A DNA stretch of 64,000 bases from Paracoccus salipaludis (GTDB lineage: Bacteria > Pseudomonadota > Alphaproteobacteria > Rhodobacterales > Rhodobacteraceae): NCBI RefSeq assembly GCF_002287065.1, contig NZ_NSJZ01000001.1, forward strand, positions 62,001-126,000, written 5' to 3'. Below are positions 5,721 through 28,182 of the stretch, piece by piece. The position numbers were made by a program, and so were the translations under genes. How positions within the stretch are numbered: the stretch's first letter is position 1; every line of letters begins with the position of its first letter. The notes beneath the pieces were generated by a model. The model had not been told where the DNA came from. It saw only the letters and a list, made by a program, of their open reading frames with translations, and searched no databases.

Positions 5721-5748
5721 AAAAGGCCGGTCTTGCGACCGGCCTTTT
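5721..5748. terminator. Bidirectional terminator between dehydrogenase gene and tRNA-Gly
   Basis: A perfect 12-bp inverted repeat (AAAAGGCCGGTC / GACCGGCCTTTT) with loop TTGC ends in a T-run on either strand. It sits directly behind the minus-strand tRNA-Gly and the plus-strand dehydrogenase gene, so it can serve both. Confidence 0.85.
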
Positions 5749-15052: not shown

Positions 15053-15078
15053 CATGGTTCGGTTAGGATCGAACCATG
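15053..15078. promoter_or_regulatory. Candidate operator over the ArsR-type gene start
   Basis: A perfect 9-bp inverted repeat, CATGGTTCG and CGAACCATG separated by 8 bases, overlaps the ATG of the ArsR-type gene and lies 50 bases before the divergent NIPSNAP-type start. Position and symmetry fit an autoregulatory operator that could also control the divergent operon. Confidence 0.6.
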
Positions 15079-15741
15079 AGAGAAGGCCCGGACATTGCCC
15101 GTGTGGCGGCCCTTGTTGCGGACCCTGCCCGCAGTGCGATGCTGATTGCATTGATGGACGGGCGCGCCCTGACCGCGACGGAATTGGCGGGGCGGGGCGG
15201 GATCACGAAGCAGACCGCCAGTTCCCACCTTGCCAAGCTCGTGGACGGCGAAGTGCTGGTGGTCGAGGCGCAGGGGCGGCACCGTTATTTTCGCCTGGCG
15301 GGCCCCCATGTTGCCAGCCTGCTCGAAGCCCTGATGGTCTTTTCCAGCGATGCCGCGCCACCCCTGCGCACCGGGCCGCGCGATCCCGGCTTACGCAAGG
15401 CCCGTATCTGTTACGATCATCTCGCTGGAGAGATGGGCGTCAGGCTTTTCGAGCGGATGCTGGCGGATCAGTGGCTGCAAGACGACCTGACCGTGACAGA
15501 GCGCGGCAACGACAAGCTGGCCGAGATCGGCCTGAACCTTGAGAGCCTGCCGCCAAGCAACCGGCCTTTATGCCGCGCCTGCCTCGACTGGAGCCAGCGG
15601 CGACAGCATCTGGCCGGGCGACTGGGCAAGACCATACTGGACCACCTTCTGGCGCAATCCTGGGCACGGCGGTTGCCTCAGTCACGCATCATCAGATTCA
15701 GCCCTGAAGGCGAGCGGATCTTCAACGGGTGGCTGGGCTGA
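15076..15741 (+). CDS. ArsR-family winged-helix transcriptional regulator
   Basis: The 221-residue protein has an N-terminal winged helix: ARVAALVADPARSAMLIALM, then LTATELAGRGGITKQTASSH as recognition helix, then LAKLVDGEVLVVEAQGRHRY as wing (to about residue 80). A C-terminal domain of about 130 residues has CRACLDWSQRRQHLAGRLG and unknown ligand specificity. It belongs to the longer ArsR group without an obvious metal site, although two Cys lie in LCRAC. It is divergent from the NIPSNAP/ABM/ACT unit and carries a palindrome over its start codon. Confidence 0.87.
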   Translation: MREGPDIARVAALVADPARSAMLIALMDGRALTATELAGRGGITKQTASSHLAKLVDGEVLVVEAQGRHRYFRLAGPHVASLLEALMVFSSDAAPPLRTGPRDPGLRKARICYDHLAGEMGVRLFERMLADQWLQDDLTVTERGNDKLAEIGLNLESLPPSNRPLCRACLDWSQRRQHLAGRLGKTILDHLLAQSWARRLPQSRIIRFSPEGERIFNGWLG

Positions 15742-16008: not shown

Positions 16009-17121
16009 TCAACTCAACCTGTTCCGGAACAGCCAGGCCGCAAGCGGCAAGGTCGCCGCCGCCACCCCGATCAGTGGCAGAAAGCTGGGCGCGATGTCGG
16101 CAAGGGTGGCTCCTTCCAGATAAACGCGCCGCACGATGTCGATGCCGAAGCGCATCGGGTTCACATAGGTCGCAAGCTGCAGGATCTGGGGCATGTTCCG
16201 CACCGGCGTCAGCAGGCCCGAGAGCAGCATCAGCGGCATGATCAGCATGAAGGTGTAAAGCATCGCCTGCTGCATGGTCAGCGACACGGCAGAAATCGAG
16301 AGGCCGATGCCGACCGCCGCCGTGGTGAAGGTCAGAAGCCCGAAATAGAGCAGCCAGACCGAGCCGGCCATCGGGATCCGGAACCAGAACAGGATGATCA
16401 GGAAGATGATCGTCGACTGCATGATCCCGACGAGGATCGCGGGCAGGGCCTTGCCGATCAGAATCTGGGAAGGTGTCAACGGCGTCACCAGCAACTGATC
16501 GAATGTGCCCTGCTCGCGCTCGCGCGCGACGGACAGCGCCGCGATCATGAGGGTCTGAAGCATGCTGAGCGAGGCGATCATCGCGGGCATCAGGTTCCAG
16601 CGCGACTCGAAGTTCGGGTTGAACCAGGCCCGGCGCGTGATGGTGACGGGCGAGGTCGCGCCCAGCGACTGGTTGTAGGCGGCGACGATCGCTGCCACCT
16701 GTGCCGCCGCCGTACCGGAGGTCGCCGAGTTCCTTCCGTCGAGGATCACCTGCATCGGGGCCTCGGCCCCGGCCGACAGGCGCCTCTCGAAATCCGCGGG
16801 GAAGATCACCACCAGCAGGGCCTTGCCGCTGTCGATCTGGCCCGCGATCTGAGCCGAGCTTTCCAGCGTTGCGGCACGCCTGAAGACGCCCGTGCCCTCG
16901 ATCCGCGCGGTGATCTCGGTCGAGGCCGCGCCCCGGCTGTGATCGAGCACGGCGAAAGGGGCATGGGTCAGGTCGTAGGTCGCGCCATAGCCGAAGAGCA
17001 GCGCCTGCAGCAGCGCCGGCGCGAACAACAGCGTGCGGCTGGAGGGGTCCTTGAGCAGCGCCAGCAGTTCCTTGCGGATCAGGGCCAGGGTCTGGGCGAC
17101 ATAGAGAAGCACGGCCTGCAT
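16009..17121 (-). CDS. ABC-2 type transport permease (YbhR-like)
   Basis: The 370-residue inner-membrane protein has one N-terminal transmembrane helix (about 27-45), a long periplasmic loop, and five C-terminal helices from about 175, including LLVTPLTPSQILIGKALPAI and the helix-rich end. This is the ABC-2 export permease layout of YbhR. It is last of four genes ordered membrane fusion protein, dual ATPase, YbhS-like, YbhR-like, as in E. coli ybhGFSR. It probably pairs with the neighbouring permease to export drugs or other compounds. Confidence 0.9.
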   Translation of the reverse strand: MQAVLLYVAQTLALIRKELLALLKDPSSRTLLFAPALLQALLFGYGATYDLTHAPFAVLDHSRGAASTEITARIEGTGVFRRAATLESSAQIAGQIDSGKALLVVIFPADFERRLSAGAEAPMQVILDGRNSATSGTAAAQVAAIVAAYNQSLGATSPVTITRRAWFNPNFESRWNLMPAMIASLSMLQTLMIAALSVAREREQGTFDQLLVTPLTPSQILIGKALPAILVGIMQSTIIFLIILFWFRIPMAGSVWLLYFGLLTFTTAAVGIGLSISAVSLTMQQAMLYTFMLIMPLMLLSGLLTPVRNMPQILQLATYVNPMRFGIDIVRRVYLEGATLADIAPSFLPLIGVAAATLPLAAWLFRNRLS

Positions 17122-17125
17122 GAGG

Positions 17126-18250
17126 TCAGTCCAGTTTCTTGGTCAGCGTGCGGGTGGCCATCAGGATCAGCACGGCCGCATAGGCCGCCAGAGTCAGGTT
17201 GGCGCGCAGGATCTGCGGCCAGTAGTCGCCGGCCATGAACAGCGTCTTGATCAATCCCATGAAATGCGTGGCGGGAAGGACATTGCTGACGACCTGGATG
17301 ACGACCGGCACGTTGCGCAGATCGAACACGAAGCCCGACAGCATCATCGCGGGCATGAAGCTTGCCAGCAGCGCCATCTGACTGGCGGCGAACTGGTTCT
17401 TCGTCACACCCGAGATCACCAGCCCCAGAGCCAGCGAGACCAGGAGGTAAAGCAGCGAGGACAGGATGATGATCCAGAGCGAGCCGCGCATCGGTACGTC
17501 AAAGACGTATCTTGCGGCGATCAGGCACATGGCAAGGTCGATCACCCCGATGACCAGATACGGCGCGAGCTTCGCCATCACCATCTCGATCGGACGCGCC
17601 GGGGTGACGAACAGGGACTCCAGCGTCCCGCGCTCCCATTCGCGGGCGATCAGCAGAGAGGTCAGGAAGGCACCGATCAGCGTCATGACCAGCACGACCA
17701 GGCCGGGAACAAGGAACCACGTGCTGTTGCTCGCCTCGTTGAACCATGTCCGCTGCAGGACCGTGACGCTGGCCGATGCGGCGGCGGGGCTGCCCTGCCG
17801 GTCCGCGATATGCTGAAGCGCGGTCGAGATGGCGCCGGTGGCGTAGCCCTCGATGGCCTGCGCGGTGTTGGAATCCACGCCATTCAGGATCAGTTGCAGG
17901 TTCCCCTGCCCATGCAGCAGGTTGCGGGTGAATTCGGCGGGGACGCGCAGGATGGCGTCCGCCTGACCTGCGCGGATCAGCGCCTCTGCCTCGACCATGG
18001 AATAGGTCCAGATCGGGCTGAGATAATCCGAACCCGCCAAGCCCGCCACCGCGTTCATCGTGGCGGCTGAGTTGTCCTCCATCACCACGGCGACCCGGGC
18101 ATCGGTCACGTCGAAGGAAAGGCTGTAGCCGAACAGCAGGATCAGAACGACGGGCAAAGCCAATCCGACGAACAGGTTGCTGCGGTCACGCAGCATCTGG
18201 CGGGCCTCCTTGCGGATCAGGGCGCGCAGCCGGAGAAATGCGCCATTCAT
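17126..18250 (-). CDS. ABC-2 type transport permease (YbhS-like)
   Basis: The 374-residue protein starts MNGAFLRLRALIRKEARQML, has a first helix near 25-45 (LFVGLALPVVLILLFGYSLS), a periplasmic region of about 130 residues, and five helices at the C-terminus, including the ABC-2 signature region EWERGTLESLFVTPARP. Four bases separate it from the YbhR-like gene, and its start overlaps the upstream ATPase gene by 4 bases. It is the heterodimer partner in a YbhFSR-type exporter. Confidence 0.9.
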   Translation of the reverse strand: MNGAFLRLRALIRKEARQMLRDRSNLFVGLALPVVLILLFGYSLSFDVTDARVAVVMEDNSAATMNAVAGLAGSDYLSPIWTYSMVEAEALIRAGQADAILRVPAEFTRNLLHGQGNLQLILNGVDSNTAQAIEGYATGAISTALQHIADRQGSPAAASASVTVLQRTWFNEASNSTWFLVPGLVVLVMTLIGAFLTSLLIAREWERGTLESLFVTPARPIEMVMAKLAPYLVIGVIDLAMCLIAARYVFDVPMRGSLWIIILSSLLYLLVSLALGLVISGVTKNQFAASQMALLASFMPAMMLSGFVFDLRNVPVVIQVVSNVLPATHFMGLIKTLFMAGDYWPQILRANLTLAAYAAVLILMATRTLTKKLD

Positions 18251-19992
18251 GCGGCGGCCTGGGCGTCACGCCGCTTGCGGCCTGCCTCGACAATGGCGAT
18301 GAAGGCGCTGTTCATGTCCCTGGCGCCCGCGTGTCCCGCCATGTCGCGGACCTGTTGCGGCGTGCCGATGGCCAGCATCTCGCCCGCATCCTGAATGGCG
18401 ATGCGGTCGCAATATTCGGCCTCTTCCATGAAGTGGGTGGTGATGATGACGGTGACGCCGCCCTTGGCGAGCGCCGTGATCCGCCGCCAGAAGGCGCGCC
18501 GGGCAAGCGGGTCGATGCCGCTGGTCGGTTCATCCAGAAACAGGATTTCAGGGCGGTGCAGCAGGCCCGTCGCCATGGCGAGGCGCTGCTTGTAGCCTGC
18601 GGGCAGAAGCCCGCTTTGCGCCGCAGGGTCAAGGTCGAACTGCTCGACGGCGTCCCTGATGCGGTCGCGCAGCATCTTGCCGCCAAGGCCATAGGCACCC
18701 CCGAAGAATTCGAGATTCTGGCGCACCGAAAGATTGCCGTAGAGCGCGAATTTCTGCGACACATAGCCGATCCGGGCCCTTGCCTGCGCCCGGGCGACGC
18801 GCAGGTTGCGGCCCGCCACCTCAAGCTGCCCGCTGGTCGCGGGCAGCAGTCCGCAGAGCATGCGGAAGGTCGTGGTCTTGCCCGCGCCGTTCGGACCGAG
18901 CAGGCCGAAGATCTCACCCCGCGCGACCTCGAACGAGGTGCTGGCAACGGCGGTGAAGTCACCGAACTTGCGGACCAGATCGCGCACCACGATGACGGGC
19001 TTGCCGTCACCGGGGGGGCGATCTGGCTCGGCCTGCGCCACGAGGGGCTCTGCCGCCCGATCCTGCTCGCGCAGCAGGATCATGAAGCTGTCCTCCAGCT
19101 CTTCGCAACGGGTCTGGCTCGACGCACCCTCCAGCAGGTCGGCCAGCCGCGCCGGATCGGCGTCGGGCCTGCGGATGAAGCGGACATTGCCGCCCCGCGG
19201 CACGGCGTCGATGATGGCATCGGGCGCGTCGATCAGCCGCGCCTGCAGGTCGCGCGCGGGGGTGCCTGCGGGCGGGGTCGCGACAAGGGTCAGGCCGTGC
19301 GCCCGCGCGCGCAGGGTTGCGGGAGTGCCCTCGGCCAGCATCCGCCCCTCATGCATGACATGGACCTGCGCGCAGCGCTCGGCCTCGTCCATATAGGAGG
19401 TGCTGACGATCACGCTCAGCCCCTCGTCCTCGACCAGTTGATGCACGATCTTCCACAGGTCCCGGCGCGACAGCGGGTCCACCCCCACGCTGGGTTCATC
19501 GAGCAGCAGAAGATCCGGCGAGCGCACCAGCGTGCACGCCAGCCCCAGCTTCTGCTTCATCCCGCCCGAAAGCTTGCCCGCGGGACGTTCGGTGAAACGT
19601 GCCATGTCGGTCATTTCCAGCATCCGTCCGAAGCGGTCGCGACGCTGGTCCGCCGGCACGCCATGCAGATCGGCATACAGGTCCAGATTTTCCTGAACGC
19701 TCAGATCCTCGTAAAGGCCGAAGCGCTGCGGCATGTAGCTGATCCGGTCCTGCACTGCCTGCGGGCGTCGGGCGACATCAATGCCAAGAACTGTCAGGCT
19801 GCCCTGATCGGGCTTCAAGAGCCCCGCGAACATCCGCATCAGGGTGGTCTTGCCCGCCCCGTCGGGGCCGACCAGCGCCGTCAACTCACCCTGCCCGACG
19901 CAGAGCGACAGACCGTCGATCGCGGTGACATCGCCGATGTCGCGATCGTGGAAGGTCTTGCGGAGCCCTGCTGCCTCGACGATCGGCGTCAT
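18247..19992 (-). CDS. Fused double-ATPase subunit of ABC exporter (YbhF-like)
   Basis: The 581-residue protein contains two nucleotide-binding domains. NBD1 has Walker A GPDGAGKTT, signature LSGGMKQKL and Walker B LLLLDEPSVGVD. NBD2 starts near residue 330 with Walker A GPNGAGKTT and Walker B ILFLDEPTSGID, but its signature reads LPAGYKQRL rather than LSGGxxQ. That is also a feature of YbhF proteins and suggests one degenerate ATP site. It overlaps both neighbours by 4 bases. It energises export by the two downstream permeases. Confidence 0.92.
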   Translation of the reverse strand: MTPIVEAAGLRKTFHDRDIGDVTAIDGLSLCVGQGELTALVGPDGAGKTTLMRMFAGLLKPDQGSLTVLGIDVARRPQAVQDRISYMPQRFGLYEDLSVQENLDLYADLHGVPADQRRDRFGRMLEMTDMARFTERPAGKLSGGMKQKLGLACTLVRSPDLLLLDEPSVGVDPLSRRDLWKIVHQLVEDEGLSVIVSTSYMDEAERCAQVHVMHEGRMLAEGTPATLRARAHGLTLVATPPAGTPARDLQARLIDAPDAIIDAVPRGGNVRFIRRPDADPARLADLLEGASSQTRCEELEDSFMILLREQDRAAEPLVAQAEPDRPPGDGKPVIVVRDLVRKFGDFTAVASTSFEVARGEIFGLLGPNGAGKTTTFRMLCGLLPATSGQLEVAGRNLRVARAQARARIGYVSQKFALYGNLSVRQNLEFFGGAYGLGGKMLRDRIRDAVEQFDLDPAAQSGLLPAGYKQRLAMATGLLHRPEILFLDEPTSGIDPLARRAFWRRITALAKGGVTVIITTHFMEEAEYCDRIAIQDAGEMLAIGTPQQVRDMAGHAGARDMNSAFIAIVEAGRKRRDAQAAA

Positions 19993-20978
19993 GAGGCGGC
20001 CTCTTCGACCAGCCGGACCGTGACCGGCTGGCCCAGCCGCAGCCTGTCACCCTCGTCCCGGACGTTGACATGCACCTCATAGACCAGATTGGTGCGCAAT
20101 TCCTCGGTCTGCACGGCCTTCGGGGTGAACTCGGCGACCGAGGAGATATAGCCGACCTGGCCCTCGACCGGCTGGTCCGGGAAGCTGTCGGTCAGGACCT
20201 GAGCCGTCATGCCCGGACGGATGCGGCCCAGATCCGCCTCGCGGACATAGACGCGGATCCATTTCGGATCGGTCAGGGCCAGCGCATAGGCCGGCGACTG
20301 CGCCGTTGCCATGTCACCGGGTTCACGCAGGCGCGAACGGATGACTGCATCCGCCGGCGCCCGCAGTTCGCCCAGCGCAATCTCGTGCCGCAGGAGCTCC
20401 AGTTCCGTTTCGGCGGCGCGCAGCTGCGCCTCGGCGGCGGCAATCGACTCGGGGCGCGGTCCGGCCAGGATCAGGTCCAGCGCAGCGATATCCTGGTCGA
20501 GAAGGGCGTTGGCCGCCTTGGCCTCGGCTTCGGCGCGATCCAGATCCTGCTGACTTGCCGCGCGCGAGGACACCAGCCGCATGGCGCGATCGCGCTGCAG
20601 ATCGGCAAGCTCTGCCGAGGCCCGGGCGGATGCAACCCTTGCCTGCGCCTGGGCGATCTCCTCGCGACGCGACCCGGCCTTCAGTTCCAGAAGCGTCTGC
20701 CGTTGCGCTTCCACGACCGCTTCCTGCGCCTTGGCCTGCAGTTCCAGGGAATGCGTATCAAGGCGGCCGATCACATCGCCGGCCTTGACGAGATCCCCTT
20801 CCTCGACCGCCATCTCGGTGATCCTGCCATTGCCGTCGAACGCCAGTGCCACCTGCCGGATATCGACATTGCCGTAGAGCGTAAGATCGCCCGACTCGGC
20901 CGCACCGCGATGCTGCCACCAGAACCAGCCGCCCGCAGCGAGAGCCATGACGATGATGATGGGAAATATCTTCTTCAT
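19989..20978 (-). CDS. HlyD/YbhG-type periplasmic membrane fusion protein
   Basis: The 329-residue protein has an N-terminal signal-anchor (MKKIFPIIIVMALAAGGWFWW), a biotinyl-lipoyl-like segment (DLTLYGNVDIRQVALAFDGNG), long heptad-rich hairpin helices rich in Ala/Glu/Arg/Gln (about 75-200), and a beta-barrel end containing GDMATAQSPAYALA. YbhG is the adaptor linking an ABC-2 exporter to an outer-membrane channel. It is the first gene of the efflux operon, and its start lies about 37 bases from a perfect palindrome in the divergent promoter region. Confidence 0.9.
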   Translation of the reverse strand: MKKIFPIIIVMALAAGGWFWWQHRGAAESGDLTLYGNVDIRQVALAFDGNGRITEMAVEEGDLVKAGDVIGRLDTHSLELQAKAQEAVVEAQRQTLLELKAGSRREEIAQAQARVASARASAELADLQRDRAMRLVSSRAASQQDLDRAEAEAKAANALLDQDIAALDLILAGPRPESIAAAEAQLRAAETELELLRHEIALGELRAPADAVIRSRLREPGDMATAQSPAYALALTDPKWIRVYVREADLGRIRPGMTAQVLTDSFPDQPVEGQVGYISSVAEFTPKAVQTEELRTNLVYEVHVNVRDEGDRLRLGQPVTVRLVEEAAS

Positions 20979-21014
20979 GAGCGAAATCCCAAGGCTTTGG
21001 CCAGATTCTTAAAC

Positions 21015-21043
21015 TAAATTGCATTTAATATAAATGCAATTTA
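21015..21043. promoter_or_regulatory. TetR-type operator candidate (13-bp perfect inverted repeat)
   Basis: Arms TAAATTGCATTTA and TAAATGCAATTTA flank ATA: 29 bp with no mismatch, strongly AT-rich in a GC-rich genome. It sits between the divergent efflux operon (start 20978) and the TetR gene (start 21141), the usual place for the operator of a TetR-family repressor. Confidence 0.75.
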
Positions 21044-21140
21044 AAGTCTGCCTGCTGCTCGCGCGACGCAGGCCGATCTTGATGGAAAGGTGGGCCGCCG
21101 CATAGGAAACAATGTCCATCCAGACCAAGGCCCTGCCGAG

Positions 21141-21806
21141 ATGACGAAAACTCCGGTCCCCCGACCTCGCGCCAGTCGCAGCGATGGCGAGGCAACCCGC
21201 GCGCGCATCCTGGCCGTCGCTGGCGAACGGTTCGCGGCGTCGGGCTTCGCCGACACGACGAACAAGGATATCGCTGCCGATGCCGAGGTCGATCTTGCCT
21301 CGATCAACTATCATTTCCGCGATCGCGCGGGCCTCTACCAGGCGGTTCTGATCGAAGCGCATCGCCGGATCGCCGATCTTCAGGACATCGAAAGGATCGT
21401 CGGAGGAGACCGGCCCGCCGAGGACAGATTGAGGGAGCTGATCCGCTTTCTTCTGGGCGGGCGCAGTGGCCAGCCGCAATGGCCGATGATCGTGCTCGGA
21501 CGCGAAATCATCGCGCCAGGCCCGCATCTTTCGGTCCTGCAATCCGAGGAGGTGCTGCCCAAGCTGCGGGCGGTCCTGCCGATCATCGGCGAGATCACCG
21601 GGATACCCCTGGACGATCCGGCCCTGCTGCGCTGCCTGCCATGCATCGCCGCGCCCTGCGTGGCCTTTATGCTGTTGGGGCGCAGTGGAACACCGGCTGC
21701 AGACTTGATGCGTGCGAACTCGCCGGATGATCTTGTCGAGCATCTGTTTCGATACGCAATGGGCGGGCTGGCGGCCGTGGGACAGGACTTTCACCGCAAG
21801 AAATGA
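21141..21806 (+). CDS. TetR-family regulator, CecR-like
   Basis: The 221-residue protein has an N-terminal helix-turn-helix: ATRARILAVAGERFAASGFA, then TTNKDIAADAEVDLASINYH with FRDRAGLYQAVL. The C-terminal domain resembles CecR (YbiH), the E. coli TetR protein encoded with ybhGFSR and controlling it. ATG 21141 is chosen because the family's N-terminal arm starts there; an in-frame ATG at 21090 would add 17 residues. It is divergent from the YbhGFSR-type operon with a 13-bp inverted repeat between them. The ligand is unknown. Confidence 0.88.
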   Translation: MTKTPVPRPRASRSDGEATRARILAVAGERFAASGFADTTNKDIAADAEVDLASINYHFRDRAGLYQAVLIEAHRRIADLQDIERIVGGDRPAEDRLRELIRFLLGGRSGQPQWPMIVLGREIIAPGPHLSVLQSEEVLPKLRAVLPIIGEITGIPLDDPALLRCLPCIAAPCVAFMLLGRSGTPAADLMRANSPDDLVEHLFRYAMGGLAAVGQDFHRKK

Positions 21807-22051: not shown

Positions 22052-23044
22052 ATGGCCGGGATCAACGGGTTTCTTCGCGCGGCAGCCATGCTTGCGCTGG
22101 TCTGGGTGCCTGCCGCAGCAGGGGCGCAGGATGCGCAATATCCCATTGTCATCAAGCACGCGCTGGGCACGACGGTTATCGAGGAAAAGCCGGAACGCGT
22201 GGCGACGGTCGCCTGGGCGAACCACGAGGTTCCGCTGGCGCTGGGCGTGGTGCCGGTGGGCATTGCCGCCGCAGGCTTCGGCGACCCGGATGGAGACGGG
22301 CTGCTGCCCTGGGTCGAGGCGCGGCTGAAGGAGCTTGGCGCCGAGGTGCCCGCGCTCTTCGACGAGGGCGATGGCATCGACTTCGAGGCGGTGGCGGCGA
22401 CAGAGCCGGACGTGATCCTTGCGGCCTATTCCGGGCTGAGCCGGGCCGACTATGAAACGCTCAGCATGATCGCCCCGGTCGTGGCATATCCGGACTCGCC
22501 CTGGGCCACGGACTGGCGTGCCATGATCCGCGCGAATGCCACCGGCATGGGCATGGCTGCGGAAGGCGAGGCGCTGATCGACAGGCTGGATGCCCGGATC
22601 GGCGAGGTTGCCGGCGGCCATCCCGAACTGGCGGGCAAGGCAGCGATGTTCATCACTCACCTGGACGCCAGCGACCTCAGCGTCCTGCGGTTCTATTCCG
22701 ACAACGACACGCGGGTGAAGTTCTTCGCGGATCTGGGGCTGACCTCTCCGCAAAGCGTCCGCGACGCCACCGCTGCCGGGCAATATGCAGGCGAGGTCAG
22801 CGCCGAGCTGATCGACCGCTTCGACGACGTGGACATCTTCGTGACCTATGGCGACGAGAACCTGCGGCAGCGGTTGCTGTCCGACCCGCTCGCGCTGCAG
22901 ATGCCCGCCATCGCGAAGGGGGCTCTGGTCATGCTGGGCAATGATGCGGTCGGGACCGGCGCCAACCCCACGCCGCTGTCCATCCCGTGGGTGCTGGACG
23001 ACTATGTCGCCTTGTTGGCGGATGCCGCGCGCAAGGGCGAATGA
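22052..23044 (+). CDS. Iron-siderophore ABC transporter substrate-binding protein
   Basis: The 330-residue periplasmic protein has a signal peptide ending VPAAAGAQDAQ and a FepB-type class III binding-protein fold. Family landmarks are HALGTTVIEEKPERVATVAW, the interdomain region around DFEAVAATEPDVILAAYSG, and a C-terminal lobe with AGEVSAELIDRFDDVDIF. It receives ferric siderophore from the TonB receptor and hands it to the two downstream permeases. It overlaps the first permease gene as ATGA. Ligand specificity cannot be read from sequence. Confidence 0.9.
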   Translation: MAGINGFLRAAAMLALVWVPAAAGAQDAQYPIVIKHALGTTVIEEKPERVATVAWANHEVPLALGVVPVGIAAAGFGDPDGDGLLPWVEARLKELGAEVPALFDEGDGIDFEAVAATEPDVILAAYSGLSRADYETLSMIAPVVAYPDSPWATDWRAMIRANATGMGMAAEGEALIDRLDARIGEVAGGHPELAGKAAMFITHLDASDLSVLRFYSDNDTRVKFFADLGLTSPQSVRDATAAGQYAGEVSAELIDRFDDVDIFVTYGDENLRQRLLSDPLALQMPAIAKGALVMLGNDAVGTGANPTPLSIPWVLDDYVALLADAARKGE

Positions 23045-24075
23045 CGGTCGCGGAACGCCAGCGGGTCCGGCCGGTTTCAGGTCGCGAGGGATGGCGGGCC
23101 GCCGCGCTGCTGGCGCTGGCGGCGGCTGTCGTGATCCTGTGCCTGGTGTCGGTCGCGACGGGCACCCGCAGCGTGGGCTGGGTCGACATCCGGGCGGGGA
23201 TAGGCGGCGCGACCGAGACCATCGGCCAGGCGGCGGTGGCCGCGCGGGTGCCGCGGACGCTGCTTGCGGCGCTGGTGGGCGCCGCGCTGGGGCTGTCGGG
23301 CACGATCCTGCAGGGGGTGACGCGCAATCCCCTGGCGGATCCCGGCATCCTCGGCATCAACAACGGTGCGGGGCTGGCGGTGGTGATCGGGCTTGCGTGG
23401 TTCGGGATGAGCGCCGATTCCAGTTTTGTCTGGGTTGCGATCCTCGGCGCGGGCATGACAGCGGTCTTCGTTTACGCCATCGGCTCGCTGGGCCGGGGCG
23501 CGGCAACGCCGCTGAAGCTGGCGCTGGCGGGCGCGGCGACCGCGGTGGCGTTCTCGTCGCTGACCATGGCGGTGGTGCTGCCCCGCAGCGATATCTCTGG
23601 CGGGGCATTGGGCTGGCAGATCGGCGGGGTGGGAGGCGCTACCTTCGAGCGGATCGAGCTGGTGCTGCCGTTCCTGCTGGCCGGCTGTGTCATCGGCATG
23701 CTGTCGGCCCGCAAGCTGAACATGCTGGCCCTGGGCGACGAGGTGGCCGCCGGCCTTGGCGAACGCGTGGCACTTGCACGGGGCATGGCCGCGCTGGGGG
23801 CGGTGATGCTGTGCGGTGCGGCGACCGCCGCTTGCGGGCCCATCGCCTTTGTCGGACTGATGGTGCCGCATGCGGGACGGCTGGTCTTCGGGGTCGATCA
23901 CCGCTGGCTGCTGCCCTGTTCGGCACTGGCAGGGGCCGCGCTTCTGATCGGCGCGGACGTGATCGGCCGGCTGGTGGCGCGTCCCAGCGAGCTTGACGTC
24001 GGCATCGTCACCGCCTTCCTGGGCGCGCCGTTCTTCATCTGGATCGTGCGCCGCCACCGGGTGCGCGAACTGTGA
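23041..24075 (+). CDS. FecCD-family siderophore permease 1
   Basis: The 344-residue inner-membrane protein has about 9-10 transmembrane helices. FecCD landmarks are RVPRTLLAALVGAALGLSGTILQGVTRNPLADPGILGINNGAG near the N-terminus, the GLGERVALARGMAALGAV coupling helix that docks to the ATPase, and PIAFVGLMVPHAGRLVFGVDHR. The start overlaps the binding-protein stop as ATGA and the end overlaps the next permease as GTGA. It forms a heterodimeric channel with that permease. Confidence 0.92.
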   Translation: MTVAERQRVRPVSGREGWRAAALLALAAAVVILCLVSVATGTRSVGWVDIRAGIGGATETIGQAAVAARVPRTLLAALVGAALGLSGTILQGVTRNPLADPGILGINNGAGLAVVIGLAWFGMSADSSFVWVAILGAGMTAVFVYAIGSLGRGAATPLKLALAGAATAVAFSSLTMAVVLPRSDISGGALGWQIGGVGGATFERIELVLPFLLAGCVIGMLSARKLNMLALGDEVAAGLGERVALARGMAALGAVMLCGAATAACGPIAFVGLMVPHAGRLVFGVDHRWLLPCSALAGAALLIGADVIGRLVARPSELDVGIVTAFLGAPFFIWIVRRHRVREL

Positions 24076-25115
24076 CGACGCCCGCGTCGTCCTCACTGGG
24101 CATTCTGTCTGCCGGTCGGGTCCGGCGTGCCCGCCGCCTGCGTGCCATGTTGCTGGTCCTGCTGTGCGGGCTGGCCGCGGCAATGGCGCTGGCGCTGATG
24201 CTGGGACAAAGCTTCACCCCGCCTGGGCAGGTGCTACGCGTGCTGGCGGGCGAGGATGTGCCGGGCGCAAGCTTCACCGTCGGCCAGCTGCGGCTGCCGC
24301 GGACGCTTCTGTCGGTGCTTGCCGGCTTCAGCTTCGGGCTGGGCGGCGCGGCCTTCCAGATCATGCTGCGCAACCCGCTGGCGAGCCCCGACATCATCGG
24401 TGTCAGCGCCGGGTCGGCCGCCGCGGCGGTGTGGGGCATCGTGTTCATGTCCCTGGAGGGACCCGCCCTTTCGGCCCTGTCAGTGGCGGCGGGACTGTCG
24501 GTGGCGCTGCTGATCTACGCGCTGTCGTTCAAGGGAGGCGTCACCGGATCGCGGCTGATCCTTGTCGGCATCGGGGTTTCGGCCATGATCAACAGCTTCA
24601 TCTCCTATGCGTTGACGCAGGCCCCGTCCTGGGACCTGCAGGAAGCGCTGCGCTGGCTGACCGGAAGCGTGAACGGGGCACGGCTGGGCCAGTCGGGTTT
24701 TCTTGCGCTGTCGCTGCTGGTCTTCGGGGCGCTGATCCTCGGCCGCCGCCGTGATCTCGAGGCGCTGAGGATGGGCGACGACCTTGCCGCGGCGCTGGGC
24801 GTGCGGGTGGGCCTGACGCGTCTGTCGGTCATCCTGGGTGCCGTGGGCATGATCGCGGTGGCGACGGCCACCACCGGCCCCATCGCCTTTGTGGCCTTCC
24901 TGTCGGGGCCCATTGCCGCGCGGATCGTCGGCCCGAACGGCTCGATCCTGATCCCTGCGATGCTGGTCGGGGGCGGTCTGGTGTTGGGGGGCGACCTTGT
25001 CGGGCAGTTCGCGCTGCCCAGCCGCTATCCGGTCGGCGTGGTCACGGGCGCGCTGGGGGCACCGTTCCTGATCTATCTCATCATCCGCGCGAACCGCACG
25101 GGGGCCTCGCTATGA
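24072..25115 (+). CDS. FecCD-family siderophore permease 2
   Basis: The 347-residue paralogous permease starts at GTG 24072 within the previous stop. It has LPRTLLSVLAGFSFGLGGAAFQIMLRNPLASPDIIGVSAGSAA, the coupling region MGDDLAAALGVRVGLTRL, and GPIAFVAFLSGPIAARIVG. It partners the first permease for ferric-siderophore import. Its stop overlaps the ATPase start as ATGA. Confidence 0.92.
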   Translation: MTTPASSSLGILSAGRVRRARRLRAMLLVLLCGLAAAMALALMLGQSFTPPGQVLRVLAGEDVPGASFTVGQLRLPRTLLSVLAGFSFGLGGAAFQIMLRNPLASPDIIGVSAGSAAAAVWGIVFMSLEGPALSALSVAAGLSVALLIYALSFKGGVTGSRLILVGIGVSAMINSFISYALTQAPSWDLQEALRWLTGSVNGARLGQSGFLALSLLVFGALILGRRRDLEALRMGDDLAAALGVRVGLTRLSVILGAVGMIAVATATTGPIAFVAFLSGPIAARIVGPNGSILIPAMLVGGGLVLGGDLVGQFALPSRYPVGVVTGALGAPFLIYLIIRANRTGASL

Positions 25116-25930
25116 CCGTCGATCACCACCTCGTCGCGCGGAACCTCTGCGCGGGCTATGGCGAGCGGCTGATCATCGAGGGGCTGAGCCTTGCCATCGC
25201 GCCCGGTCGGATCACTGCCATTGTCGGTGCCAATGCCTGTGGCAAGTCCACCCTGCTGCGGGCGATGTCGCGGCTTCTGTATCCCCGGCAGGGACAGGTG
25301 CTGCTGGACGGGCAGTCGATCCACGGGATGCCCACGCGGGAACTGGCACGCGTGCTGGGGCTGCTGCCGCAGTCGCCCATCGCGCCCGAGGGGATCACCG
25401 TCGCCGACCTCGTCAGCCGCGGTCGCCATCCGCACCATGGCCTCGTGTCCCGCTGGAGCCGGGCGGACGACGAGGCCGTCGCCGCCGCCCTGGACGCGAC
25501 GAAGATCGCCCCGCTGGCCGACCGCATCGTGGACGAACTGTCGGGTGGCCAGCGCCAGCGCGTCTGGATCGCCATGGCCCTGGCGCAGCAGACCGACCTT
25601 CTGCTGCTGGACGAGCCGACGACCTTTCTGGACGTTGCCAACCAGATCGAGCTTCTGGACCTGCTTTGTGATCTGAACGCCCGGCGCGCGACCACCATCG
25701 TGATGGTGCTGCACGACCTGAACCTTGCCGCGCGCTATGCCGACCGGCTGGTCGCGATGGAAGGGGGCCGCGTTCATGCCGAGGGAAGCCCCTCCGAAGT
25801 GCTGACCGAGGACAACATCCGGCAGGTCTTCGGTCTGAACAGCCGGGTGGTCCCGGACCCCGTGTCGGACCGGCCCATGGTTCTGCCGATCGGCCGGCAC
25901 CGCGTTGTCGAGCAATCCACCAAGGGTTGA
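25112..25930 (+). CDS. Siderophore ABC transporter ATPase (FepC-like)
   Basis: The 272-residue ATPase has Walker A VGANACGKSTLLRA, the Q-loop LLPQSPIAPEGITVADLVSRGRHPHHG (characteristic of FepC/FhuC), signature ELSGGQRQRVWIAMAL, Walker B LLLLDEPTTFLD and the switch HDLNLAARYADR. It powers the FecCD pair. The open frame of the downstream receptor would overlap it, but the receptor start is placed further on. Confidence 0.94.
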   Translation: MTVDHHLVARNLCAGYGERLIIEGLSLAIAPGRITAIVGANACGKSTLLRAMSRLLYPRQGQVLLDGQSIHGMPTRELARVLGLLPQSPIAPEGITVADLVSRGRHPHHGLVSRWSRADDEAVAAALDATKIAPLADRIVDELSGGQRQRVWIAMALAQQTDLLLLDEPTTFLDVANQIELLDLLCDLNARRATTIVMVLHDLNLAARYADRLVAMEGGRVHAEGSPSEVLTEDNIRQVFGLNSRVVPDPVSDRPMVLPIGRHRVVEQSTKG

Positions 25931-26020
25931 CTGTCGCTTTCGCGCAACATCGCAGGCCCTGCCGATCGCCCGCTGGAACTAGCCATTGCGTCCGGAAGCG
26001 GCCAGAAGCTACTTCATCTA

Positions 26021-26036
26021 AAAACCAACTAAAACT
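26021..26036 (+). promoter_or_regulatory. Iron-uptake promoter motif, copy 2
   Basis: AAACCAACTAAAAC sits 14 bases before the TonB-dependent receptor gene and matches copy 1 (22021-22036) at 12 of 14 positions, at nearly the same distance from the start codon. This suggests joint regulation of importer and receptor. Confidence 0.45.
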
Positions 26037-26049
26037 ATTGGGATTGTTG

Positions 26050-28182
26050 ATGACCATCGCTTCTGCCCGCCGGCCCCTCCGGATGTCCCGCCTTGCGGTG
26101 CTGTCATGCTGCACCGCGATCCACCTTCTGCCCTTGGGCGCGCTGGCGCAGGAGACCGAGGACGCCGACGAATATCGCCTTTCGCCCGTCCTGCGCCTGC
26201 CCGAGATCACCATCACGGCCAGCGGGGTGGGGGGCGACGACGACGCGAATTCGGTCGTCGCGCATGAACTTTGGGTCGGCGGCAAGGTGGCAACCAGCAT
26301 CCTCGACACGCCGGCCTCGGTTTCGGTTGTCACCCAGAAGGAAATCGAGGAGCGCAACGCCACCACGCTGGAGGAGGTGCTGCAATATTCGGCCGGGACG
26401 GTCACCGACTACTACGGCACGGACGACCGCAACGATTACTTCCTGATCCGCGGCTTCCAGGCCTCGACCTATCGCGACGGGCTGACGCTGGGGTCCATGC
26501 GCGGCATCCGCGAGGAGCCGCTGGCCTACGAGCGTGTCGAGATCATCCGCGGCGCCAACTCGACCCTGTTCGGCATTGCCGATCCCGGTGGCTCGATCAA
26601 CTTCGTGACCAAGCGGCCGCGGGCCGAGCGGTTTTCCGAAGTCTTCGCGACCGTGGGATCGTTCGACCAGAAGATCGTCGGCTTCGACTTCGGCGATACG
26701 CTCGACCCCGATGCGACGCTGTCCTACCGCTTCACCGGCAAGCTGCAGGATTCCGAACGCGAATACGACTATTCGAAGGACGACGAGGAATTCCTGATGG
26801 GCGGCCTGACCTGGGCTCCCAGCGGTGCGACCTCGCTGACAGTCGTCGCCGACTACCTGAACCGCGACGCGACGCCCAACAGCGGCGGCTATCCGCGCGG
26901 CGGCGACTATGACCGCGACCTTTTCCTGGGCGAGCCGGACTTCAACTATCTCAACGTCGAGCGCAGCGCGCTCAGCGCGATCTTCGAACATGACTTCGGT
27001 GGCGGCCTGACGCTGCGCTCGAACCTGCGCTACAGCGACACCGAGGACGACTATGGCTATGTCTACATATCTGGCGACGCCGGCAACGGCCCGGTTCCGC
27101 GCGGCTACCTGGCATCGGACAATGCCGCGCACGAGATCATCGGCGATGTTATCCTGCAATATGACCGCAGCTTCACCCAGGTCGACAGCAGCACGCTGGC
27201 CGGGATCGAGTTCAGCGACGCGACGAGCTACAATTCGGCTTTCTACGGCATCGACGCAGGCGCCATCGACCCGAACGATCCGGTTCATGTCGGTGCGCCG
27301 TCCGAGCTGATCCTGTATCAGGACGAAAAGCGCGAAAGCCGCACCAAGGCTGTCTTCGTCCAGCAGAACCTGTCCTTCAGCGATCGCCTGATCGCGACCG
27401 TCGGGGCAAGGCACGACTGGCTGGACCTGTCCGTGGACGACCACCTGGCCGGAACCTTCACCAGCGACGATTTCTCGGAAACCTCGGTCCGCGGGGCGCT
27501 GACCTACAAGGTGACGGACGAGATCTCGACCTACGTGAGCTACGCCGAGTCGATCGCCCCGCCGTCGATCGGAGTCGAGCCCGAGCGTGGCGAGCAGTAC
27601 GAGATCGGGGTGAAATACGATCCCGCCGGCATGAATGCCCTGTTCAGCGCCGCGATCTACGACCTCAGCAAGACCAACATCACCGTGGTCGATCCCGACA
27701 CGCTCGAGCGCGAACTGGTGGGCGAGATCCGCGCCCGCGGCCTGGACGTCGAGGCCAAGGCCGAGGTCCGCGAGAACATCTCGCTGACCGCCTCCTATTC
27801 CTACACCGACACCGAGGTTGTCCGTTCGGACCCGATCCGCGGCGTCGACGTGGTGGGCAACGAGGTCGGCTCGGTCCCCAACCACGCGGCCTCGCTGTGG
27901 GTGGACTATACCCTTCCGGGGGCGGGCAACCGCGGCGACATGACCTTCGGCCTGGGCGCGCGCTATGTCGGGTCGTATTTCTTCGCGACCCAGAACAACA
28001 ACGGCAAGAGCGAGGCGACCACGCTGCTGGACGCGGCCTTCAGCTATGATGTGTCGGAAAGCACCGAACTGGCGCTGAACGTCAGCAACCTGCTGGATGA
28101 ACAACATGTCGTCGGCCGGGGGACCGCTGACTACTACAATCCCGGCAGGGCCGTTTACGCCACGCTGCGTCACCGCTGGTGA
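26050..28182 (+). CDS. TonB-dependent siderophore receptor
   Basis: The 710-residue outer-membrane receptor has a signal peptide (to about LGALAQE) and a plug domain with TPASVSVVTQKEIEERNATT, LEEVLQYSAGTVTDYYGTDD and DYFLIRGFQ. A 22-strand barrel follows, ending in VYATLRHRW with the typical terminal aromatic. The plug pattern is that of FhuA/FpvA-type ferric-siderophore receptors. ATG 26050 is chosen because the signal peptide starts there; the frame runs open 41 codons upstream into the fepC-like gene without sense. It sits in one cluster with the importer, DUF2946-like and PepSY genes. Confidence 0.93.
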   Translation: MTIASARRPLRMSRLAVLSCCTAIHLLPLGALAQETEDADEYRLSPVLRLPEITITASGVGGDDDANSVVAHELWVGGKVATSILDTPASVSVVTQKEIEERNATTLEEVLQYSAGTVTDYYGTDDRNDYFLIRGFQASTYRDGLTLGSMRGIREEPLAYERVEIIRGANSTLFGIADPGGSINFVTKRPRAERFSEVFATVGSFDQKIVGFDFGDTLDPDATLSYRFTGKLQDSEREYDYSKDDEEFLMGGLTWAPSGATSLTVVADYLNRDATPNSGGYPRGGDYDRDLFLGEPDFNYLNVERSALSAIFEHDFGGGLTLRSNLRYSDTEDDYGYVYISGDAGNGPVPRGYLASDNAAHEIIGDVILQYDRSFTQVDSSTLAGIEFSDATSYNSAFYGIDAGAIDPNDPVHVGAPSELILYQDEKRESRTKAVFVQQNLSFSDRLIATVGARHDWLDLSVDDHLAGTFTSDDFSETSVRGALTYKVTDEISTYVSYAESIAPPSIGVEPERGEQYEIGVKYDPAGMNALFSAAIYDLSKTNITVVDPDTLERELVGEIRARGLDVEAKAEVRENISLTASYSYTDTEVVRSDPIRGVDVVGNEVGSVPNHAASLWVDYTLPGAGNRGDMTFGLGARYVGSYFFATQNNNGKSEATTLLDAAFSYDVSESTELALNVSNLLDEQHVVGRGTADYYNPGRAVYATLRHRW

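Follow-up and report, generated by a model that had tools for sequence, protein, structure and literature searches.

Between an exporter operon and a divergently encoded TetR-family regulator of a Paracoccus genome lies a short AT-rich palindrome, and the question raised by this locus is whether the palindrome is the operator of the regulator and which part of it would be the recognized unit. The locus was analysed within a continuous stretch of 64,000 nucleotides (hereafter, the window). The 29-bp AT-rich perfect inverted repeat with mismatch-free 13-bp arms reported in the initial annotation was confirmed at positions 21015–21043, which read TAAATTGCATTTA-ATA-TAAATGCAATTTA (no mismatches, 3-nt spacer, 86% AT). 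Its placement was likewise borne out: the repeat is intergenic, between the start of ybhG (20978, minus strand) and that of tetR, and so separates a ybhGFSR operon from a divergent TetR gene with a CecR_C domain. The features of the locus, in window coordinates, are as follows.

16009–17121, minus strand: ybhR-like ABC-2 permease (domain search; gene order the same in 11 relatives)
17126–18250, minus strand: ybhS-like ABC-2 permease (domain search; gene order the same in 11 relatives)
18247–19992, minus strand: ybhF-like double ATPase (domain search, comparison with E. coli)
19989–20978, minus strand: ybhG-like HlyD/membrane-fusion subunit (domain and family searches, comparison with E. coli)
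21011–21016, minus strand: possible mirror -10 of ybhG, TAGTTT (tentatively read from the sequence)
21011–21031, no strand: putative operator 1, matching AnnYTAAATTGAATTTARnnT except at one base (C at 21022); centre G21021, core 21015–21027
21015–21043, no strand: 29-bp perfect inverted repeat, comprising two 13-bp putative operator cores and a 3-nt spacer (sequence, scans)
21019–21024, plus strand: proposed -35 of tetR, TTGCAT (TTGAAT in the consensus), inside operator 1 and 17 bp before the proposed -10
21027–21047, no strand: putative operator 2, with outer A and T kept and a reverse-complement core; centre 21037, core 21031–21043, an exact TAAATnnnATTTA
21034–21039, minus strand: possible mirror -35 of ybhG, TTGCAT (tentatively read from the sequence)
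21042–21047, plus strand: proposed -10 of tetR, TAAAGT, inside operator 2 (conserved columns)
21141–21806, plus strand: TetR-family regulator (TetR_N and CecR_C), PhlH/PltZ-related (domain and profile searches, alignment)

No other perfect inverted repeat in the 64-kb window reaches 13-bp arms with a loop of at most 8 nt. The runners-up have arms of 12 and 11 bp, the second longest being found at 5721–5748 with 12-bp arms and a 4-nt loop. Of 200,000 single-base shuffles of the 44-bp AT-rich island that holds the repeat, only 34 produced perfectly paired arms of 12 bp or more around a loop of at most 5 nt, so the palindrome is real and base composition alone is insufficient to account for it. 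At up to three mismatches the 29-mer matches once in the window and not at all in 100 shuffles. A search for further copies, suggested with the first description of the repeat, returned this one alone from the whole Paracoccus genome at the same tolerance (3,674,522 bases in 187 contigs, ~3.67 Mb).

The operon to the left of the repeat is of the YbhGFSR exporter type, with the gene order G-F-S-R, a double ATPase and two ABC-2 permeases. Comparison with the E. coli K-12 proteins covered the two subunits YbhF (48% identity) and YbhG (41%). The best match of the YbhG-like protein in NCBIfam is PRK03598 ('secretion protein HlyD'), which we take to be the model of YbhG, although at 320.3 bits the score falls short of the cut-off of 393. 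For the regulator, the ATG at 21141 (plus strand) was chosen as start from alignment with relatives, while the mechanical list of open reading frames gives a GTG at 21090; both candidate starts lie to the right of the repeat. Further out, the window holds an ArsR-type regulator at 15076–15741 (HTH_20; under the NCBIfam cut-offs), convergent with the end of the pump operon, and at 22052–28182 frames that by eye resemble an iron-siderophore uptake cluster (binding protein, two permeases, ATPase and TonB-type receptor).

A profile search of the PDB with the regulator returned PhlH as the top match (7e1l/7e1n, E 2.2e-59, nearly full length), with the CecR entry 9i1x at 1.8e-9; a single-protein search also gave 7e1l (E 2.8e-42). 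Entry 7e1n is identified as PhlH in PMC11878095. Identity to E. coli CecR amounts to 23% over 192 positions. The CecR_C domain (PF09209) scores 28.8 bits against a cut-off of 24, compared with 120.9 bits for E. coli CecR itself, and the match to the NCBIfam CecR equivalog, at 24.8 bits, lies below its cut-off of 365. The original label 'CecR-like' is apt for the domain, but the kinship with CecR that it implies is only loose. Judged by these searches, PhlH is a far closer relative of the regulator than CecR is, and we describe the regulator as probably PhlH/PltZ-related by virtue of its similarity to PhlH, the member of that pair with which it was compared.

Conservation was followed within the genus and beyond. 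Among 125 Paracoccus genomes, the present one included, 90 have some match to the regulator at E 1e-3, and 11 besides the present one have a strong full-length ortholog (44–71% identity, E 2.4e-55 or better). In all 11 of these relatives ybhGFSR is divergent from the regulator. A family-wide search of 394 genomes gave four with a regulator match of E 1e-30 or better, own genome included. Across the 12 Paracoccus intergenic regions a ~40-bp AT-rich block can be aligned, partially only in L041 and L042. Pairing within the block was scored as complementarity over 12 pairs, with the L042 block placed by hand, one base off the MAFFT alignment. About the midpoint of the palindrome (21029) it is 0.92 in the window versus a mean of 0.61 in the 11 relatives. 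The highest mean in these relatives among the centres tried, 0.69, was found about 21021. Across 2000 sets of shuffled blocks the maximum over all centres was 0.51; as the rows are related, this is no strict probability. The initial annotation had made its proposal depend on conservation of the palindrome in related genomes: the AT-rich block is kept with the gene pair in 11/11 relatives, but the 29-mer as such is not conserved, and the best shared centre lies 8 bp to its left.

A wider sample was obtained with a query built from an alignment of 12 proteins, which returned 247 related loci in a named genome collection, of which the best 80 were analysed; these are not mutually independent and some are identical. 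Whereas this query confirmed relatives, a single-protein query of genome contigs confirmed none among 59 pattern matches. The best 80 loci come from alpha-, beta- and gammaproteobacteria, along with some contigs that bear the labels Verrucomicrobia, Chthoniobacterales and Nitrospira. When the 700 bp upstream of the regulator are scanned, at least 10 of the 12 positions of TTAAATnnnATTTAA agree in 69 of these 80 loci, and 11 or 12 positions in 59 (12/12 in 24, 11 in 35, 10 in 10, 9 in three and 6–7 in eight). In 68 of the 69 loci scoring at least 10, the rest of the fetched sequence holds no match as good; the exception is L122. In seven of the 11 loci below 10, ybhG is more distant and a site scoring 10–12 is found just upstream of ybhG instead (L058–L060, L064, L067, L075 and L086; L058–L060 are identical in the site and in the positions of ybhG, ybhF and regulator). 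The others are L102, L103 and L117, which score 9, L117 being without a clear site, and L108, which scores 7 on a contig without ybhG. Exact TAAATnnnATTTA is found upstream in 47 of the best 80 of 247 loci, with eight occurrences in the other 868 kb. In four Pseudomonas loci (L105, L110, L112, L114) the dyad is again present at 12/12 upstream of the regulator, which here precedes a gene that by eye resembles an MFS drug exporter.

Alignment of 59 non-redundant divergent pairs on their best site, window included, gave the 21-bp consensus AnnYTAAATTGAATTTARnnT. Conservation by column runs as A 98% at -3, TAAAT 92–100%, T 83%, G 61%, A 78%, A 75%, TTTA 93–98% and T 97% at +17, and the conserved letters are symmetric about the G. 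Because this motif also served to align the rows, part of the conservation in the core columns is built in, which does not apply to the outer A and T or to the -10. Operators 1 and 2 fall at 21011–21031 and 21027–21047, so that each palindrome arm corresponds to one operator core. By this alignment the conserved unit appears as the core of one arm and not the 29-mer. The first reading of the repeat as an operator is thereby retained, as a prediction, whereas the single 29-bp palindrome as its unit is not, because one arm is the conserved unit. A search of 385 genomes of the class with the strict 21-bp consensus gave a single match, at an AT-rich locus with no match to this TetR or to YbhGFSR within its 3 kb; this search is uninformative since one base of the present genome's own site already departs from the strict pattern.

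The two operator centres, 21021 and 21037, are 16 bp apart. A second site at this distance is present in 13 of the 57 non-redundant loci whose best site scores at least 10, window included, versus 0.1 per set with shuffled flanks; the 13 are seven of the nine named Paracoccus loci, the window, L055, L061, L062, L116 and L122. Other offsets are over-represented as well, namely 6 (19 versus 0.57) and 11 (22 versus 3.18), partly from self-overlap of the motif, and 17 (5 versus 0.12). In the remaining 44 of 57 loci no second operator was found at 16 bp; therefore one site may suffice. We consider it probable, on the strength of these comparisons, that the element is a tandem pair of 21-bp operators for the divergently encoded TetR regulator, which would repress both promoters. 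That the 29 bp are perfectly symmetric follows from the second site reading as the reverse complement of the first.

Alternatively, the 29-bp palindrome could be one operator with its centre at 21029, bound by one dimer or as one cooperative unit. Such a unit is favoured by the perfect symmetry of the window sequence and by the backward pattern ATTTAnnnTAAAT, which is centred on 21029 and is exact in six of nine named Paracoccus loci (exact TAAATnnnATTTA in five) and in seven of the 12 genus intergenic regions (TAAATnnnATTTA in eight). In agreement with it, ATTTARNYTAAAT occurs in 9 of 125 genomes, with six of the nine places in this intergenic region, and the symmetry of 0.61 about 21029 exceeds every shuffled set. 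However, among the 71 loci of the best 80 of 247 that are not named Paracoccus, TAAATnnnATTTA is exact in 42 and ATTTAnnnTAAAT in five, many non-Paracoccus loci have a single site, and two sites placed 16 bp apart make symmetry about their midpoint automatic. A single operator centred on 21029 is thus unlikely. The centre of the 21021 type seems to be the general one, while the Paracoccus data alone are compatible with either dimer centre. It is also conceivable that the site belongs to a regulator other than the adjacent TetR protein. Against this, the dyad accompanies the TetR clade in five Pseudomonas loci (L105, L110, L111, L112 and L114; 12/12 each) in whose fetched DNA no ybhGFSR was detected, and PltZ is reported to bind a related motif (PMC7360687); we regard a different regulator as very improbable.

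In the own genome exactly two exact copies of TAAATnnnATTTA are present, both in this element, with one further place at one mismatch, which points to a single target locus of the regulator for this core. Across the genus, exact TAAATnnnATTTA is found in 25 of 125 genomes, which by hand count comprise 8/12 with the regulator and 17/113 without it, and nine of the ten matches in the 12 regulator-bearing genomes fall in the regulator–ybhG intergenic region. The backward pattern used as control, ATTTAnnnTAAAT, is found in 10/12 genomes with the regulator and 15/113 without (hand count, places of matches unlisted). This control is not clean because ATTTAnnnTAAAT occurs inside the tandem element, and its enrichment with the regulator would follow if the elements are so built, as a tandem element would carry both registers. 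At one mismatch the backward pattern occurs 11 times in the own genome versus 3 for TAAATnnnATTTA, with at least one of the 11 in the element.

The promoter of tetR is proposed to lie within the two operators. In the 59 aligned loci the -10 hexamer has A at its second position in 69% and T at its last in 76% (53% and 64% if the leftmost site is used for alignment instead). A scan for the sigma-70 consensus found no promoter, and the -35/-10 proposal rests on the alignment. The symmetry of the window faintly suggests a mirror promoter for ybhG; the aligned loci have no position-conserved columns matching its -35 and -10.

An overlap of this kind could mean that the conservation merely reflects AT-rich promoter hexamers, the block coinciding with the proposed -35/-10 pair and its 17-bp spacer, with no site for a specific regulator. 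The symmetry of the letters about the G and the A at -3 and T at +17, which lie outside both motif and hexamers, argue against this, as do the enrichment of exact cores in regulator-bearing genomes and the presence of the site at ybhG where the genes are apart; taken together these make promoter hexamers alone a most improbable explanation. An RNA hairpin or terminator was also considered and rejected. The repeat can fold into a 13-bp stem on the plus strand (-11.5 kcal/mol, z -4.62) and also folds on the minus strand (-12.4 kcal/mol, z -3.26), but the stem is AT-rich with two G-C pairs only and no T-run, and scans for terminators and for Rfam families up to E 0.1 gave no match here. Moreover, pairing is only partly retained in the relatives (0.61) and the proposed start sites would leave the repeat outside both transcripts, so that the probability of a hairpin function is negligible.

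Most likely, the element is a double operator with a single target, through which a PhlH/PltZ-related repressor also controls its own gene. The sequence analysis shows how the element is built, that it accompanies the gene pair in relatives, that it occurs once in the genome and that the regulator is close to PhlH; binding, occupancy by two dimers, repression, autoregulation and release by ligand are what we infer for it. In the proposed mechanism two repressor dimers would bind operators 1 and 2 and shut both promoters, operator 1 covering the -35 of tetR and operator 2 its -10, and the expected location of the ybhG promoter would overlap the same DNA. With their centres 16 bp, or roughly 1.5 helical turns, apart, the dimers would sit on opposite faces of the DNA. 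Binding of a ligand would cause the regulator to leave the DNA, so that pump and repressor are both induced. The inducing signal may be a toxic compound; the nearest characterized relatives respond to aromatic antimicrobials. Two dimers bound to overlapping sites on one palindrome are known from QacR and similar TetR regulators. The window element differs from the QacR site in spacing and letters, and two-dimer binding here is a prediction.

Among known systems, an intergenic dyad between regulator and target, as found here, is a trait of the PhlH/PltZ type. PltZ of Pseudomonas, reported as ~39% identical to PhlH (PMC7360687, PMC8305169, PMC11878095), resembles the proposed switch in being a TetR repressor of the adjacent ABC exporter operon (pltIJKNOP), and in Pf-5 also of its own promoter (PMC7360687, PMC8305169). 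In ATCC 27853 it is described as binding TNNAATTNNAATTNNA between pltZ and the exporter operon and repressing the operon (PMC7360687, PMC8305169). The site is an AATT-based semi-palindrome in the regulator–pump intergenic region that overlaps the predicted -10 (PMC7360687). Release of PltZ, at least in part, is attributed to 2,4-DAPG in ATCC 27853 or pyoluteorin in Pf-5 (PMC7360687, PMC8305169, PMC11878095). The initial annotation had recognized no TetR operator resembling the arms; they do resemble the AATT semi-palindrome given for PltZ/PhlH (PMC7360687), though not letter for letter, as TNNAATTNNAATTNNA has two bases between its AATT halves and the consensus here has one (AATT-G-AATT). TNNAATTNNAATTNNA has no match in the window and is found upstream in 13 of the best 80 of 247 loci, versus 47 for TAAATNNNATTTA. 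The PltZ system differs further in its reported linkage to pyoluteorin genes (PMC7360687, PMC8305169). PhlH of Pseudomonas fluorescens 2P24 (PhlH-phlG) is the closest protein of solved structure, aligned over nearly its full length, and is reported to leave its DNA upon exposure to an aromatic antimicrobial, but its target is the hydrolase gene phlG and not a pump (PMC11878095).

Protein searches also returned 22 plasmid and two phage records. A P. aeruginosa plasmid (L128, near 5946) and an E. coli IncP plasmid (L129, near 4903), both typed as conjugative, carry a regulator with an ABC exporter operon of the kind described here, which in L128 lies beside tni-type transposition genes. In both, the published PltZ 16-mer pattern is found at the start of the regulator, and in L129 inside the annotated start of the regulator gene.

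E. coli CecR (YbiH; cecR-ybhGFSR/rhlE) shares with the window locus the TetR_N and CecR_C domains and the YbhGFSR pump (PMC8249747, PMC7190983, PMC6790063). In contrast to the divergent tetR of the window, however, cecR directly precedes ybhG in the same orientation; its best upstream TTAAATnnnATTTAA score is 7/12, and the cecR–rhlE intergenic region (L127) carries TCTTAATCAATCATTTGATTAAGA instead, which belongs to the ATCAAnnnnTTGAT class. Palindromes of this class are found upstream in seven of 18 Paracoccus loci with distant TetR homologs (L014–L031), namely L016, L017, L018, L025, L027, L029 and L031; the best TTAAATnnnATTTAA score within 300 bp upstream in the 18 is 9/12. CecR_C is present in all three of the seven that were checked (L016, L018 and L031). 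In these three loci, the next frame on the same strand is by eye HlyD-like. ATCAAnnnnTTGAT was not found in the intergenic sequence of the window. It may be the binding site of CecR, and regulators with CecR_C probably comprise two operator classes.

The gene switch proposed here is sound, fairly ordinary and of a known kind, built otherwise than first supposed. What is added is a consensus of 21 bp, the recognition of a tandem arrangement and of a single target, and a distinction from CecR: the PhlH/PltZ-like group is set apart from E. coli CecR by its likely DNA target as well as by protein. The open-licence literature yielded no description of this operator in Paracoccus and no papers for the motif strings or for CerR with TetR and operator. 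As a tentative generalization, to which we give slightly less than even chances, AnnYTAAATTGAATTTARnnT may be a clade-wide operator, shared by alpha-, beta- and gammaproteobacteria and by contigs that carry the labels Verrucomicrobia and Nitrospira, that stays near-constant while the pump changes, and its doubling at a 16-bp step in Paracoccus and a few other lineages may create a steeper two-dimer switch acting on both divergent promoters. The consensus offers a precise, searchable predicted operator for a large group of pump regulators, of which PltZ and PhlH were the only characterized members found. With one target locus predicted in this Paracoccus, both the regulon and the inducers of the pump would be open to direct test.
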